DNA of 64,000 bases from Pseudomonadota bacterium (GTDB taxonomy: Bacteria > Pseudomonadota > Alphaproteobacteria > GCA-2746255), in assembly GCA_040752895.1 (NCBI GenBank), contig JBFMHN010000004.1, forward strand, positions 186,001-250,000. Reading direction: 5' to 3'. The position numbers were made by a program, and so were the translations under genes. Under the pieces are notes generated by a model. The model had not been told where the DNA came from. It made no database searches and was given only the letters and a program-made list of their open reading frames with translations. Below, piece by piece: positions 48,712 through 56,521 of the stretch (position 1 is its first letter; each line of letters starts with the position of its first letter).

Positions 48712-48905
48712 CGATATGGCGCAGTAAGACCTTCGTTCAAAAGGAAAAATCAAGATCACGCGGAAGTAGAGCGAAGTCGCTGTCAAAAGATTTGGACGGC
48801 GCTCTAGTTATGAGTACTGGATGAATGAAAAAACCGCCCGATTTTTAGAACATAAAGTGAACAAACTTTGTTTTCTGGCGAAGAAAGAAAAAGAAAAAGA
48901 AAAAA

Positions 48906-49280
<375 letters not shown>

Positions 49281-51641: not shown

Positions 51642-51861
51642 GGCGGCTTTCTTGAAAAAATCGTGGCGGCGAACATAGACCGGATTGTTCACCCGCACCA
51701 GTGCAAGCAAGACGGCCAGGCCGCCGGCTTGCGCGTCGTCGCGTCCGTAACATTTTTCCCGGATGGGTGGAAAGGGCCCTTCGGCGGCGGCTTCGGAAAG
51801 AAAGCTTAAGGTAACCTCTTGGTATCGGGTAGGCTTGCGTGGAGGGGGGAGGAGCGCACCC

Positions 51862-53025
51862 ATGTTTGGTCGGCAGATCACGCTTTTTCGCTTGCTTGGC
51901 TTCCGGGTCGGCATCGACTGGAGCTGGCTTGTTCTCGCCATTCTCATCACCTGGACGCTGGCGGTGGGATTCTTTCCCACCCTCTTTCCAGATCTCGAGG
52001 CGACCACCTATTGGTCGATGGGAATCGTCGGCGCGCTCGGTCTTTTCTTTTCGATCGTCTTTCACGAGCTTTCTCACTCGCTGGTGTCGCGTCGCTTCGA
52101 CATGCCCATCCGCGGGATCACGCTTTTCATCTTCGGGGGTGTGGCCGAAATGGAAGGCGAACCAACAAGCCCGAAAGCGGAATTCCTGATGGCGATCGCA
52201 GGTCCGATCGCGAGCATGGTTCTCTCTGGTGGTTTCTTATTGGTGGGCTTGCTGGGCGATCGCATTGGCTGGCCGGTCGCCGTCGTCGGGGTGCTGTCTT
52301 ATCTGTACTGGGTCAACGGCCTTCTCGCGCTTTTCAATCTGGTGCCCGCCTTTCCCCTGGATGGAGGGCGGGTTCTGCGCGCCGCGCTTTGGGGCTGGAA
52401 AAAGGATTACCGCTGGGCAACCAAGATCGCGTCGAACACCGGTAGTTTTTTCGGCCTCCTTCTGATCGCCCTCGGCATCGTAAGTTTCGTGACCGGCAAT
52501 TTCGTGGGCGGGTTCTGGTGGTTTCTGCTTGGACTTTTCGTCCGCTTTGCGGCGAGTTCCTCTTATCACCAGGTCATCGTTCGGGAATCCTTAAGCGGCG
52601 TTCCGATCTCGGCCGTCATGACGTCGAATCCAATCGTCGTTCCGCCGTCGCTGACGGTGGCGGAGCTCGTCGAGGAGTATTTTTATCGCTACCATCACAA
52701 GATGTTTCCGGTGATGGAGAACGGCCGCTTCATGGGTGTGGTCAACCTGCGTAACGTGCAGGGATTGCCGCGCGCGTCTTGGGCGACGGCGCGGACCGCC
52801 GAAGTCCTGGAACCCCCTTCGGAAAAGACGGTTGTTTCTCTGCGGCTCGACGCGATGACGGTTCTTTCCTGGATGCAGAAGACGGGAAACGGCCGGCTTT
52901 GCGTCACCGACGGCGACCGTTTGGCCGGCGTCGTTACGCGCAAGGACGTGTTGGATCTGCTTGCGCTCAGGCTTGCCCTGGAGGAGGAAACGCACGGCCC
53001 GGCCCCCGGCTGGGGCCGGTCTTGA
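51862..53025 (+). CDS. Site-2-protease-family (M50) membrane metalloprotease with CBS domains
   Basis: A 387-residue rhomboid-unrelated intramembrane protease: zinc site HELSH in a helix at residues about 66-70 and the second motif FPLDGGRVL near residue 170, within five or six membrane helices. The C-terminal half holds two CBS domains (ISAVMTSNPIVVPPSLTVAEL; RTAEVLEPPSEKTVVSLRLDA), which may sense adenylates. Family members cleave membrane-bound regulators; the target is unknown. GGAGG stands just before ATG 51862. A possible small RNA gene follows. Confidence 0.9.
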   Translation: MFGRQITLFRLLGFRVGIDWSWLVLAILITWTLAVGFFPTLFPDLEATTYWSMGIVGALGLFFSIVFHELSHSLVSRRFDMPIRGITLFIFGGVAEMEGEPTSPKAEFLMAIAGPIASMVLSGGFLLVGLLGDRIGWPVAVVGVLSYLYWVNGLLALFNLVPAFPLDGGRVLRAALWGWKKDYRWATKIASNTGSFFGLLLIALGIVSFVTGNFVGGFWWFLLGLFVRFAASSSYHQVIVRESLSGVPISAVMTSNPIVVPPSLTVAELVEEYFYRYHHKMFPVMENGRFMGVVNLRNVQGLPRASWATARTAEVLEPPSEKTVVSLRLDAMTVLSWMQKTGNGRLCVTDGDRLAGVVTRKDVLDLLALRLALEEETHGPAPGWGRS

Positions 53026-53058
53026 GGCCGAAACCACCGGTAAATTCGTAGCAACTGT

Positions 53059-53087
53059 TTGATACGAAACAATTTTTAACATTACAA
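53059..53087 (+). promoter_or_regulatory. Candidate sigma-70 promoter of a small RNA
   Basis: TTGATA (53059-53064) and TTACAA (53082-53087) are separated by 17 bases inside a 55-base AT-rich patch between GC-rich sequences. The start point would be near 53095, about 190 bases before a strong terminator and with no good coding frame between. Confidence 0.5.
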
Positions 53088-53094
53088 AGAATTC

Positions 53095-53325
53095 ATCTTC
53101 CAGCCATCCCCCTGCAAGGTGGGGAGATATAAAAACTACGCTGAAGAACAGGTCCTCTACATCGAAGCGGTCCCTAAGCGCTTTCGATGGCAAGCCCCCT
53201 GCGGATGCAACAGCGCCTGCGGAGGTTCCGGGCCCTAAGCTTCGGCTCCCTTTGACCGGCCGTGGGGTCGACAGAAGGCTCGGATGGGCGGCCCGTGAAC
53301 TCCCTCACGGGCCGCCCTCGTTTTT
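53095..53325 (+). ncRNA. Putative structured small RNA, family not recognised
   Basis: A promoter-like element, about 230 nt without a convincing frame, and a strong terminator define a candidate RNA gene. A clean internal hairpin pairs CATCGAAGCG (53160-53169) with CGCTTTCGATG (53179-53189), one bulged base, nine-base loop. The motif CCCTAAGC occurs in this loop region (53173-53180) and again at 53233-53240, and CCTGCGGA occurs twice near 53198-53223. It could be 6S RNA or a trans-acting sRNA, but I could not match a known consensus. A 22-codon frame from ATG 53187 is the only coding alternative. Confidence 0.4.
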
Positions 53326-53326
53326 C
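53286..53326 (+). terminator. Strong Rho-independent terminator
   Basis: GGGCGGCCCGTGA (53286-53298) pairs perfectly with TCACGGGCCGCCC (53305-53317) around a six-base loop, followed by TCGTTTTTCTTT. It points along the plus strand, ending the putative small RNA and/or the M50 protease message, and insulates the converging histidine kinase gene. Confidence 0.92.
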
Positions 53327-53333
53327 TTTGGCT

Positions 53334-54785
53334 TTATTCGGCGGCTTCGCGAGCCGACTCGTCTTGCGCGGCGCGGCGGAAGGCGAGCGTGATGCGCAGG
53401 CCCGGCGCCTCACCCCCCGGCTCGCTATCGCCAAGTTCGCTATCGCAAAGCTCCAAGGTCGCCCGATGCAGTTTCGCCACCGCCGCAACGAGGCTTAAGC
53501 CCAAGCCGGTGCCGGGCGTGTCCGCGTCTTTCTCCAGCCGGACGAAACGCTGCAGCACGCGCTCGCGGTCCGCCGTCGGAATGCCGGGGCCGTTGTCTTC
53601 GATGATAAAAAGAACGCGTTCTTCGTTCGCCGTCACCTGGAGGCGGATTCGCCCGCCCCGAGGGGTATATTTGATGGTGTTGTCGAAAAGGTTGGTCAGC
53701 GCCTGGGCGAGGGTCTGGCGGTTTGCCAGCACGGGCGCGGTGGGGGCGAGCGTCGCTTCGAAGCGAAGGTCGCGCTCGTGCGCCACCGGCTCGTAAAGCT
53801 CAAGCAGCTCGGCGGCCAGTTCCGTTAAATCCAGCGGCCTCATCTCGAAGCGCAGACCGCCAGCCTCGGCGCGCGCGATGTTGATCAGCGCATCGAACGT
53901 CGAACGGATGTGGTCCGTTTCGTTGATCGCCTGCCGCAAGGTTGAACGGTAAGTTTCCATATCCGGCTTTCCGCGCAGCGTCATCTCGATCCGGTTTTTC
54001 AGGCGCGTCAGCGGCGCGCCCAGGTCGTGGGCCACGCTGTCGGTGACCGCCCGCATGCCAACGAGCAGGCGCTCGATCTGGTCCAGCATTTCGTTGAAAT
54101 TTTCCGAAACCCGGTCGAACTCGTCACCCGTGCCGCGCACCTTCACGCGTTGGGTAAGGTCGCCGTCAATGATCTGCCGGCTGGTTCGGGCGATGGCGTC
54201 CACCCGGCGCAGCATTTGGCGGCTTAGGAGCAATCCTCCGAAAAAGGCGAGCAGCACCGTGATGACGATCGACCAGGCCAGCGCAGCCCGGATCACTTCG
54301 CGGAAGCGTTCGCGTTCCTCGACGTCGCGGCCGATCAGCATGTGGTAGCCGCCCGGCAGGTCTATGACGCGCGCCCGCATCTGGCGGGATATCTTTTCCT
54401 CGCCCTGGCTGTGGCTGATGTCAAAATGAATCCAGATGCTATCCTCTTTGGCGATCAGCGGCGAATCGTCCGCATCGGCGGGCCAGGCGCTTAGGTTTCC
54501 GGTGAGGGGGTCGTAGCGTCGATTGACGAGCAGATAGATGGCGCCTGGCTCCTTCAGGTTCACGGAGCGGTGCTGGATAACGGCGGCAAGCCCTTGCAGG
54601 CCGAAGAGGCTGTATTGTTCGACGAGACCCTTCGTTTCAGCTTCGATGATCCGGTTCGTCTCGCGGTCGATCAACTCGACCGTCGTGTAGTAGATAAACC
54701 CCAGCAGGACGACGGCGGAAATACCGAAGAAGGCCATGTAAAGAACGGCCATTCGGAAGGTCGAGGTGCGGAAAAGCCTAGTCAT
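53334..54785 (-). CDS. HAMP-containing sensor histidine kinase (EnvZ/QseC-like class)
   Basis: A 483-residue inner-membrane kinase: helix 1 (residues 12-34), a periplasmic sensor of about 130 residues, helix 2 (169-189), HAMP (190-240), HisKA with phosphoacceptor H253 in VAHDLGAPLTRLK, and HATPase with NLFDNTIKY, IIEDNGPGIP and GTGLGLSLV. Its start overlaps the response regulator stop by eight bases (ATG 54785), so the two are translationally coupled. The stimulus is unknown; no regulated target can be named from position alone. Confidence 0.9.
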   Translation of the reverse strand: MTRLFRTSTFRMAVLYMAFFGISAVVLLGFIYYTTVELIDRETNRIIEAETKGLVEQYSLFGLQGLAAVIQHRSVNLKEPGAIYLLVNRRYDPLTGNLSAWPADADDSPLIAKEDSIWIHFDISHSQGEEKISRQMRARVIDLPGGYHMLIGRDVEERERFREVIRAALAWSIVITVLLAFFGGLLLSRQMLRRVDAIARTSRQIIDGDLTQRVKVRGTGDEFDRVSENFNEMLDQIERLLVGMRAVTDSVAHDLGAPLTRLKNRIEMTLRGKPDMETYRSTLRQAINETDHIRSTFDALINIARAEAGGLRFEMRPLDLTELAAELLELYEPVAHERDLRFEATLAPTAPVLANRQTLAQALTNLFDNTIKYTPRGGRIRLQVTANEERVLFIIEDNGPGIPTADRERVLQRFVRLEKDADTPGTGLGLSLVAAVAKLHRATLELCDSELGDSEPGGEAPGLRITLAFRRAAQDESAREAAE

Positions 54786-55455
54786 CTGCACGTAGCGAAT
54801 ACCCCGCGCCGCGGATCGTATGGATCAGCGGCTTGTCAAAGCCCTTGTCGATTTTCTGGCGCAGCCGGCTTACCTGTGCGTCGATCACGTTTGTCTGGGG
54901 ATCGAAGTGGTAGTCCCACACGCCTTCCAGCAGCATCGTCCGGGTGACGACCTGGCCGGCATGCCGCATCAAATATTCGAGCAACCGAAATTCCCGCGGC
55001 TTCAACTCGATCGTTCGGTCGGCCCGCTTCACGGTGCGGGTGATGAGATCCATTTCGAGGTCGCCGACGCTGAGGCGGCTTTGCTCGGCCCCCGGCTTCT
55101 CCCGCCGCAGTAACGCTTCGATTCGTGCGAGCAGTTCGGAAAAGGCATAGGGCTTGGAAAGGTAGTCGTCGGCGCCCGCCTTGAGGCCGGTCACGCGATC
55201 GTCCACCTGGCCGAGGGCGCTTAGGAGCAGGACACGGCTTTTCACGCCCTGTTCGCGCAGAAGCTTCACGATCGAGATGCCATCCGTGTTGGGAAGCATC
55301 CGGTCGACGATAAGCAGATCGAAATCTCCGGTCGCGGCCAGGAAAAGCCCCTCCCGGCCATCGGCGGCGTGGTCGACCGTATAGCCGTGCTCTTTCAGGC
55401 CCTTCATGAGATAGGCCGCCATCTCGCGGTCGTCTTCGATGATCAGAATATGCAT
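54778..55455 (-). CDS. OmpR/PhoB-family response regulator
   Basis: A 225-residue two-domain regulator. Receiver: acidic pair in IIEDD, phosphoacceptor D51 in LLIVDRMLPNTDG, conserved Lys in LSKPYAFSELLARIEALLRR. C-terminal winged helix: KPREFRLLEYLMRHAGQVVTRTMLLEGVWDYHFDPQTNVIDAQVSRLRQKID. ATG 55455 starts the canonical receiver; the frame upstream to 55692 is unsupported. A perfect TATAAT sits 40 bases upstream. Partner kinase overlaps its 3' end. Confidence 0.93.
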   Translation of the reverse strand: MHILIIEDDREMAAYLMKGLKEHGYTVDHAADGREGLFLAATGDFDLLIVDRMLPNTDGISIVKLLREQGVKSRVLLLSALGQVDDRVTGLKAGADDYLSKPYAFSELLARIEALLRREKPGAEQSRLSVGDLEMDLITRTVKRADRTIELKPREFRLLEYLMRHAGQVVTRTMLLEGVWDYHFDPQTNVIDAQVSRLRQKIDKGFDKPLIHTIRGAGYSLRADD

Positions 55456-55494
55456 CGGCCCTACTTTCGGCAGCGCGCGTTCTCCGGCCGCTGG

Positions 55495-55595: not shown

Positions 55596-56426
55596 TCAAG
55601 GGCCGGCCGGCTTCGCATTTGGAAAGAAAAGACGCTCGCCGTTCACCTTGAAGTCGCCGATCGCACGCTGGCCTTCCTCGGAGGTGATCCATTCAACGAA
55701 AGCCTGCGCCCCTTCCGCGTTGACGTGGGGGAAACGCACCGGATTGACCAGGATCACGCCGTAATAATTATAAAGGTGTGGATCGTTCTCGACGAGAAGA
55801 ACGAGGTCGCGGCGGTTCTGGAAGCTGAGCCAGGTGCCGCGGTCGGTGAGCGCGTAGGCGCCCATCGCGGCGGCCATGTTCAGTGTCGCCCCCATGCCGG
55901 AACCCGCCTCACGGTACCATGTACCGGAGGCCGATGTTACGTCGAGCCCCGCCTTCTTCCAAAGATCAAGTTCCATCTTGTGGGTGCCACTGTCGTCGCC
56001 GCGTGAAATGAAGGGGGCTTCCTTTTCGGCAATCCACTTCAACGCTTCGCTCGCCTTCTTCAATTTTCCGATGTTGGCCGGGTCGTTCCCGGGGCCGACA
56101 ACGATGAAGTCGTTGTACATGACGTCGCGGCGCCCGGTTCCGAAGCCGTCGGCAACGAATTTGTCTTCCGACGCGCGGTGATGAACAAGCAGCACGTCGG
56201 CATCCCCGCGCTCGGCGATCTTGATGGCTTGGCCGGTGCCGACGGCGACGACACGGACTCTGATTCCGGTCTTTGCCGTGAAGATGGGAAGCAGGTAATC
56301 GTAAAGCCCGGAATTCTCCGTCGAAGTCGTCGAGGAGAGCGTAATCGACGTTTCGGCTGCCCAAGCCTGGCCGAAAAGAAAAAGAAAAAAGCCGAACAGG
56401 CAAAGGGTCGCGTTGCGAAAGCGCAT
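55596..56426 (-). CDS. tupA: Tungstate ABC transporter, periplasmic binding protein TupA
   Basis: A 276-residue secreted protein: signal peptide (LCLFGFFLFLFGQAWA, cleaved before AE), then the TupA hallmark TLSSTTSTENSGLYDYLLPIF, VVAVGTGQAIKIAERGDADVLLVHHRASEDKFVADGFG, FISRGDDSGTHKMEL and YREAGSGMGATLNMAA. These are the oxyanion-binding segments of tungstate-specific receptors, distinct from ModA and WtpA. Start ATG 56426 has TGAGG five bases upstream. It is only 21 bases from the end of a tRNA-Gly on the same strand, so it is probably read from the tRNA promoter, and it is inverted relative to tupBC over 1.3 kb away. Confidence 0.92.
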   Translation of the reverse strand: MRFRNATLCLFGFFLFLFGQAWAAETSITLSSTTSTENSGLYDYLLPIFTAKTGIRVRVVAVGTGQAIKIAERGDADVLLVHHRASEDKFVADGFGTGRRDVMYNDFIVVGPGNDPANIGKLKKASEALKWIAEKEAPFISRGDDSGTHKMELDLWKKAGLDVTSASGTWYREAGSGMGATLNMAAAMGAYALTDRGTWLSFQNRRDLVLLVENDPHLYNYYGVILVNPVRFPHVNAEGAQAFVEWITSEEGQRAIGDFKVNGERLFFPNAKPAGP

Positions 56427-56447
56427 CGGGGCCTCAGGGGGAAAGGG

Positions 56448-56521
56448 TGGAGCGGGCGAGGGGAATCGAACCCCCATCTAAAGCTTGGGAAGCTTTCATT
56501 CTACCATTGAACTACGCCCGC
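56448..56521 (-). tRNA. tRNA-Gly (anticodon CCC), CCA encoded
   Basis: On the minus strand a 74-nt cloverleaf: acceptor GCGGGCG pairs with CGCCCGC, followed by discriminator T and an encoded CCA (56448-56450). The anticodon arm is AAAGC-TTCCCAA-GCTTT, giving anticodon CCC, and the T arm is GGGGG-TTCGATT-CCCCT. D-loop sequence TTCAATGGTAGAA is normal. It reads GGG glycine codons. Confidence 0.96.

Follow-up and report, generated by a model that had tools for sequence, protein, structure and literature searches.

The DNA between an M50 peptidase gene and a convergent histidine kinase gene raises the question of whether it holds an RNA gene of its own or only the end of the peptidase mRNA. The preliminary description of the window (the whole 64-kb stretch of DNA analyzed here) had placed an RNA gene with its own promoter and terminator between convergent coding genes, and this setting, with an M50/CBS protease gene on the plus strand and the kinase gene on the minus strand, is confirmed. 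The locus was compared between the genome of the window (G000) and three other genomes of the same genus (G001, G002, and G003). Conservation, covariation, and changing upstream neighbors support a gene with its own promoter region and terminator, but neither the specific promoter assigned to it nor the weight given to a duplicated motif, CCCTAAGC. The locus is very probably a stand-alone gene for a non-coding RNA, more likely than not a regulatory one, with a predicted transcript of about 185-190 nt (about 53140-53327, plus strand). We estimate the probability that it is a real RNA gene at about 85%; what the analysis shows directly is its conservation, its structure, and its independence from the upstream gene. 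The evidence for a gene is comparative, and transcription, the start site, the mode of action, the targets, and the regulator are all matters that we infer.

Positions 53078-53327 are non-coding and are conserved in all three of the other genomes of the genus at 73-81% DNA identity, as the preliminary description had suggested be checked in relatives. When 53059-53330 was compared by blastn with 96 genomes, the same-genus matches had E-values of 1.4e-52, 2.6e-36, and 3.4e-30; some match at E <= 1 was obtained in 78 of the 96, and those beyond the genus were short only (best E 0.007), which we take as chance. Mean pairwise identity among the four species follows a characteristic course. It is 0.36-0.48 upstream, 0.72-0.75 over about 53085-53124, and 0.28-0.44 over about 53125-53153 (two blocks, 0.44 and 0.28), after which it lies at 0.55-0.88 from 53154 through the terminator, being high up to 53322. 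In the 31 bases after the terminator it is 0.16 and 0.06, and then about 0.5-0.6 in the 3′ end of the kinase gene. Conservation therefore comprises a promoter-like block (53078-53134), free of indels from the operator-like box to the -10 element in the four species, then a variable spacer, and then a structured RNA (about 53140-53327). The indel-free first block is what would be expected of promoter or operator DNA, while the second, with length changes between helices, is what would be expected of a structured RNA. The features are collected in Table 1.

Table 1. Predicted elements of the RNA gene and the genes that flank it (positions in the window).
Feature	Position	Strand	Basis and remarks
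M50 peptidase with CBS domain	51763-53025	+	Pfam; upstream neighbor, outside the RNA unit
Operator-like box CATTACAAAGAATTCATC (consensus CATTRCRAARAWTTCATS)	53080-53097	+	Aligned without indels in 4/4 species
Rest of promoter-like block	53098-53127	+	CAT 11 bp from the CAT of the box; GCAAGGT at 53114; constant spacing
Probable -10 element TATAAA	53128-53133	+	Alignment position kept; TATAGA, CTTAAA, and CTTAAA in relatives
Variable spacer with putative transcription start (~53140)	53135-53153	+	Drop in identity
Hairpin H1, UCCCUAA (53171-53177) in apical loop	53160-53189	+	11 model pairs, 95.5% of cells paired, 2 double-change pairs
Hairpin H2 (CC.CUGC...GCGGAGG)	53196-53225	+	10 pairs, 2 double-change; lower helix 92.9% paired, upper 75%
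Long-range helix P3 (53227-53234 with 53277-53284), enclosing H4	53227-53284	+	96.8% of cells paired over 8 pairs; one-sided variation in 3 pairs, two-sided in none
Hairpin H4 (UUCGGCUCCC / GGGGUCGA) with invariant GACCGGCCGUGG (53254-53265)	53241-53271	+	95% paired, no double changes; 12/12 bases of GACCGGCCGUGG identical across 4 species
Intrinsic terminator, 13-pair stem 53286-53317, 6-nt loop, U-rich tail TCGTTTTTCT	53286-53327	+	Terminator scan; helix 96.2% paired, 3 pairs with double changes; AACUCCCUC (53298-53306) across the loop invariant in 4 species
Histidine kinase (HAMP, HisKA, HATPase_c)	53334-54791	-	Pfam; convergent, adjoins the RNA in 4/4 genomes
OmpR-type response regulator, CusR/CopR/SilR-like	54778-55467	-	Partner of the kinase; candidate regulator of the RNA

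In the alignment of the four sequences, 94.2% of cells are paired in the consensus fold, as opposed to 37-47% when the structure is slid along the alignment, and seven pairs carry double changes against a shuffle mean of 3.0, a count that was matched or exceeded by one of 500 shuffles. The double changes are located in H1, at the top of H2, and in the terminator, with none in P3 or H4. Covariation support is modest because there are only four sequences, and the structural support that these provide is good but not overwhelming. With the terminator included, the predicted fold is more stable than that of shuffled sequences in G000 (z -3.47, 0/200 as good), G002 (z -4.79, 0/200), and G001 (z -2.62, 3/200); without the terminator, the G000 fold is no better than that of shuffles (z -0.68, 48/200). 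Two structures named in the preliminary description are recovered: the terminator with its 13-bp stem is called by the terminator scan, and the hairpin of about 10 bp corresponds to H1, which the consensus fold keeps in four of four species. The CCCTAAGC motif does occur twice in G000, at 53172 and 53233 with both strands of the window counted, but this duplication is private to that genome. While the UCCCUAA of the loop copy is kept in all four species, the second copy reads CCCCAAGC, CCCAGGC, and CTCTCACC in the relatives, and since it differs in every one of them, the duplication was rejected as a functional feature.

How such an RNA would act is suggested by its loops. In the H1 and terminator loops, the cores are invariant in the four species and unpaired in all four predicted ensembles, whereas the H4 segment is only partly unpaired. 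UCCC loop motifs are typical of pairing sRNAs, and accessible, conserved UCCC loops, a feature of sRNAs that use C-rich loops to pair with Shine-Dalgarno sequences, are thus present here in the predicted ensembles. In the mechanism that we propose, transcription would start at a promoter that belongs to the RNA gene and is probably regulated (box at 53080-53097, -10 at 53128), the transcript would end at the terminator, and the product would be a chain of hairpins whose loops display the invariant C/U-rich or GC-rich segments UCCCUAA, GACCGGCCG, and AACUCCCUC. The UCCC loops may then pair in trans with Shine-Dalgarno-like AGGGA or GGGAG stretches of a few mRNAs and block their translation, with envelope proteins as the first candidate targets and the neighboring CusR/CopR-like response regulator as a plausible activator. 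Loop-based pairing in trans is the mode of action to which we incline, as somewhat the more probable one, over its main rival, a structural or protein-binding RNA.

In that rival explanation, the RNA serves as a sponge or scaffold, and its invariant loops are sites of protein binding or dimerization, CGGCCG being self-complementary. The high degree of structure, the length of about 190 nt, and the 12 invariant nucleotides GACCGGCCGUGG of H4 would suit such a role, as would the U-tails, which begin TCGTTTTTCT, TTCGTTTTAT, TTTATTTTTG, and TTTATTTGC in the four species and are short for an Hfq-type sRNA. The rival also gains from the genome-wide distribution of loop complements, which are not enriched before ATG. 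In the four genomes, TTAGGGA-N0-15-ATG, which contains the complement of the H1 loop, occurs at 63 sites against 58 for a reversed control (four of the 63 are the opposite strand of the RNA gene itself, and some sites overlap), and GAGGGAGT-N0-15-ATG occurs at 15 against 10, so that the enrichment looked for in a Shine-Dalgarno-pairing sRNA was not found. AGGGA is also an ordinary ribosome-binding sequence. Against a structural role stand the UCCC motifs in the loops and the lack of a credible Rfam match of any kind, and we regard it as a serious but rather unlikely alternative.

Under pairing in trans, the genes that carry TTAGGGA in their leaders are of interest. Among starts read as real genes, and with motif genes of single genomes left out, the motif recurs before genes for a DUF1302-type outer-membrane protein (G000, G002, and G003), MlaA (G000 and G003), a Porin_O_P porin (G002 and G003), a CtrA-like regulator (G000 and G003), a Tat-signal protein and a mutase-like protein (both G002 and G003), and GroES (G001 and G002). 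Pfam annotation was obtained for a single member of each of the DUF1302-type, MlaA, Porin_O_P, and CtrA-like groups (the last giving Response_reg only), and the other names were given by eye. Three of the seven recurrent orthologue groups are envelope proteins. In G000, the DUF1302 leader has extra pairing that a fraction of 0.004 of 253 background leaders equaled; this was not reproduced in G002 or G003, where 0.403 and 0.435 of the background were as good. The G000 mlaA leader, which was chosen by searching for those same motifs, offers one site to the H1 loop (-15.0 kcal/mol) and another, separate from it, to the terminator loop (-15.7 kcal/mol), and 0 of 333 sampled genes had a sum as good. 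The G003 mlaA leader is unremarkable, with 0.051 (H1) and 0.059 (terminator loop) of 253 background leaders as good. The candidate targets are thus leads only, and each one, taken singly, would probably turn out not to be a target. As a separate observation, in the Porin_O_P leaders of G003 and G002 (L108 and L118), a short way ahead of the start, a small CCGCC..GGCGG hairpin is kept and is followed directly by TTAGGGA, and both lie upstream of, and separate from, the likely ribosome-binding site.

The surroundings of the RNA gene bear on two further explanations. The kinase and response regulator genes adjoin it in four of four genomes and occupy the same position in all three relatives, with 86-89% amino-acid identity for the regulator and 70-74% for the kinase. 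Kinase transcripts that read through would presumably be antisense to the RNA, and the element could accordingly be conceived of as a cis antisense element acting on the convergent kinase mRNA. Simple antisense overlap, however, would require less than the hairpins and invariant loops that are conserved here, and in G000 the last codon of the kinase lies a few bases past the U-tail, leaving the kinase coding region uncovered by the RNA; we consider this explanation improbable. Two observations on these neighboring genes may be recorded here. In G001, the normal frame of the kinase (L002 1578-1800) appears to be lost near its 3′ end, where the expected C-terminal residues continue in another frame (an ORF ending at 1744) and the long frame thereby runs on into the RNA gene, which could be an assembly error. 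A gene for a TupA-like tungstate-binding protein lies upstream of the regulator gene (55596-56477, minus strand) and in the same place in G003; it was looked for in the G001 and G002 regions but not found.

The second of these explanations is that the conserved DNA belongs to the M50 protease mRNA, either as its 3′ untranslated region and terminator or as the source of a 3′-derived sRNA processed from that mRNA. In G000 and G002 the protease gene does lie upstream in the same orientation, and in G000 it ends 52 bp before the conserved block. In G001, however, this place is taken by a hydantoinase A/B gene, and in G003 about 510 bp without a recognized co-oriented gene separate the RNA from a divergent TerB-DnaJ gene. 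A 158-aa frame in G003 that is co-oriented with the RNA is mostly antisense to the TerB-DnaJ gene and looks spurious. In G001 and G003, no M50 protease turned up within the 16-kb region surrounding the RNA. In addition, the conserved block begins inside intergenic DNA and is free of indels up to the -10-like element. As the upstream gene is swapped or missing while the kinase, regulator, and RNA stay together, the RNA is not simply the 3′ end or terminator of the protease gene; the linkage that persists within the genus is that of the RNA with the two-component system. A terminator merely ending the protease mRNA, which the preliminary description had named as the finding that would overturn it, is thus not borne out by G001 and G003, and this explanation is very improbable. 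The slot of the protease appears to be a variable spot beside the RNA gene: in G001 (L090 3782-7591) it holds a gene for a 1269-aa fused hydantoinase A/B-type protein, named by eye, and in G003 it is empty.

Membership of the RNA in a known family, whether as a divergent 6S, SRP, tmRNA, RNase P, or BjrC80 RNA or as another alphaproteobacterial sRNA, is highly improbable. No Rfam 15 family, riboswitches included, reached its gathering score at the RNA, and none below it was credible, in agreement with the preliminary description, which could match the gene to neither 6S, SRP, or tmRNA nor a riboswitch; Rfam cannot reveal a family that has not been described. What can be said for such membership is a weak match to BjrC80 (RF02354), the best below threshold (22.4 bits against a gathering cut-off of 80, E 0.036). 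BjrC80 is likewise a multi-hairpin RNA with a GC-rich terminator, but on our reading it is chiefly the terminator that carries the alignment, in which many pairs are broken. The other candidates gave no match here and are encoded elsewhere in the genome: 6S RNA (RF00013), which is of a similar size range, at G000:C6:41832-41990, and the alpha tmRNA (RF01849) and small SRP RNA (RF00169), all three over their cut-offs. RNase P RNA (RF00010) likewise did not match, and a class A RNase P RNA gene lies at 48904-49278 on the minus strand of the window (325.6 bits).

A short peptide of 21-22 aa, with its ATG in the 3′ arm of H1, is the least credible explanation, given that the frame, although it ends at the same place in three of four species, is 36 aa long in G001, that the peptides differ at many positions, that the ATG forms part of a conserved stem and is preceded by no ribosome-binding sequence that we could see, and that on our reading no small frame looks conserved as protein in the four species.

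The distribution of the RNA was followed with a covariance model, R1, built from the same four genus sequences; in the genome set, this genus makes up its entire order (n=4). R1 found the RNA at 158-181 bits in these four genomes, which are its own training genomes, and in the 381 other genomes of the class (385 in total) it gave only five weak matches of 20-24 bits. Upon rescanning (L036-L040), these were not accepted as homologues; the alignments of two rest mainly on a GC-rich hairpin, and L036 has, by eye, a terminator just 3′ of a coding region. A search of 41 genomes was positive in four, all in the genus. As the class-wide search scored seven candidates per genome and the 41-genome search at most 69, divergent homologues could be missed. 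Beside 26 related kinase loci of other families (L050-L075), R1 found nothing credible, and for 14 of these a second scan with the filters off reached no more than 12.0 bits (E 0.15). A match of 20.9 bits beside the L054 kinase could be traced to a terminator, that of a DegP-type protease gene whose end is at 1395. The RNA-kinase linkage is therefore known only within one genus. Apart from the RNA, an HtrA/DegP-type protease motif (G[ND]SGGP) was seen within two of the 26 loci (L054 1-1395 and L073 near 253), and in L054 the protease gene is convergent to the kinase gene and occupies the place that the RNA has in G000, which hints at an envelope role for the kinase family. In a collection of 84,980 species, the exact loop pattern returned the records of G001 and G002 together with one Bradyrhizobium match (L043), which lies inside a coding frame and is taken as chance; G000 and G003, both of which fit the pattern, were not returned, their records being missing or left out there.

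The region upstream of the RNA gene points to a candidate promoter other than the one first proposed. The preliminary description had assigned it to TTGATA (53059) and TTACAA (53082) at a spacing of 17 bp, yet a sigma-70 scan gave no sites in 52500-54000. TTGATA lies outside the conserved block and TTACAA within the conserved operator-like box, so the proposed promoter is not the conserved one. Transcription probably starts near 53140, just after the TATAAA at 53128-53133, upstream of which no -35 element was recognized. Sigma-54 and Pho-box readings of the upstream block were weighed by eye and dropped. The consensus CATTRCRAARAWTTCATS, a pattern derived from the four sites themselves, has no other site in the four genomes at zero or one mismatch and eight at two, with none for the reversed pattern. 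One of these two-mismatch relatives (L089, G000:C4:124424-124441) lies beside TGCA-rich repeats, upstream of a gene that by eye looks like a phasin gene.

The adjacent response regulator is a candidate for the protein that binds this box. It scores 255 bits against TIGR01387, below the cut-off of 279, with the CzcR/SilR/CopR and CusR/HprR models closest, and its DNA-binding half matches PcoR (2jzy) at E 5e-23; the best NCBIfam subfamily of the kinase is TIGR01386, at 174 bits against a cut-off of 292. The box of the Escherichia coli CusR/HprR regulators is given as CATTACAAAATTGTAATG (PMC9302797). The box of the RNA gene matches it at 12, 12, 15, and 13 of 18 positions in the four species and is in each the best or tied-best such site in the scanned region, although 12 of 18 is not rare in G000, where the window has nine sites (its own included) and a 400-kb sample has 37 with 12 to 14. 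No such box was found before the regulator gene. Feedback on the leader of the regulator gene was considered and set aside, as the G000 and G001 leaders differ and the latter holds a tRNA-like sequence (by eye). Control of the RNA by the adjacent CusR/CopR-like regulator is therefore put forward tentatively, as a possibility that falls short of being probable.

Two groups of described sRNAs offer comparisons, which are made here on their published descriptions. The Caulobacter crescentus sRNA ChvR is described as controlled by ChvI-ChvG, Hfq-independent, and narrow in distribution, and as using two stem-loops to pair with two sites on the mRNA of one outer-membrane receptor (PMC6237742). The RNA presented here is likewise a putative alphaproteobacterial sRNA with a link to a two-component system and a proposed mode of stem-loop pairing, but its control and target are predicted whereas those of ChvR come from experiment, and the ChvR gene is at the recF/gyrB locus whereas this gene adjoins two-component genes. 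The likeness concerns described features only, and no homology to ChvR is claimed. The SisA-D (alpha-R8) sRNAs of Caulobacter are described as pairing through a single-stranded C/U-rich core, UUUCCUCCCU, with mRNAs that include one for a TonB-dependent receptor, and SisA is reported in Hfq pull-downs (PMC12559287). As described, this core is comparable to the UCCC loops, but it is one internal single strand rather than a set of hairpin loops. Among the titles and opening lines of abstracts returned by literature searches on small RNAs, CusR, copper, and two-component systems, none names an sRNA like this one.

Taken together, these observations describe a new, lineage-specific RNA family of an ordinary kind, its status as undescribed resting on Rfam and a few literature searches. 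A bolder proposal, which we hold to be unlikely, is that the RNA is the dedicated post-transcriptional arm of the adjacent two-component system, a multi-loop sRNA that a CusR/CopR/HprR-type regulator would drive through a box found only here and that would repress the DUF1302-type, MlaA, and Porin_O_P genes, more than one UCCC loop touching the ribosome-binding regions of their mRNAs; if this were true, the three genes for regulator, kinase, and RNA would form a single unit that stays together. An alphaproteobacterial order, represented by four genomes of one genus, gains a well-delimited RNA family that has no match in Rfam 15 and is in other respects an ordinary kind of bacterial gene. The linkage of this family to a two-component system of the metal- or oxidative-stress type suggests when the RNA may be made and, if that is so, it would parallel ChvR as a case of two-component control of the envelope through an sRNA.
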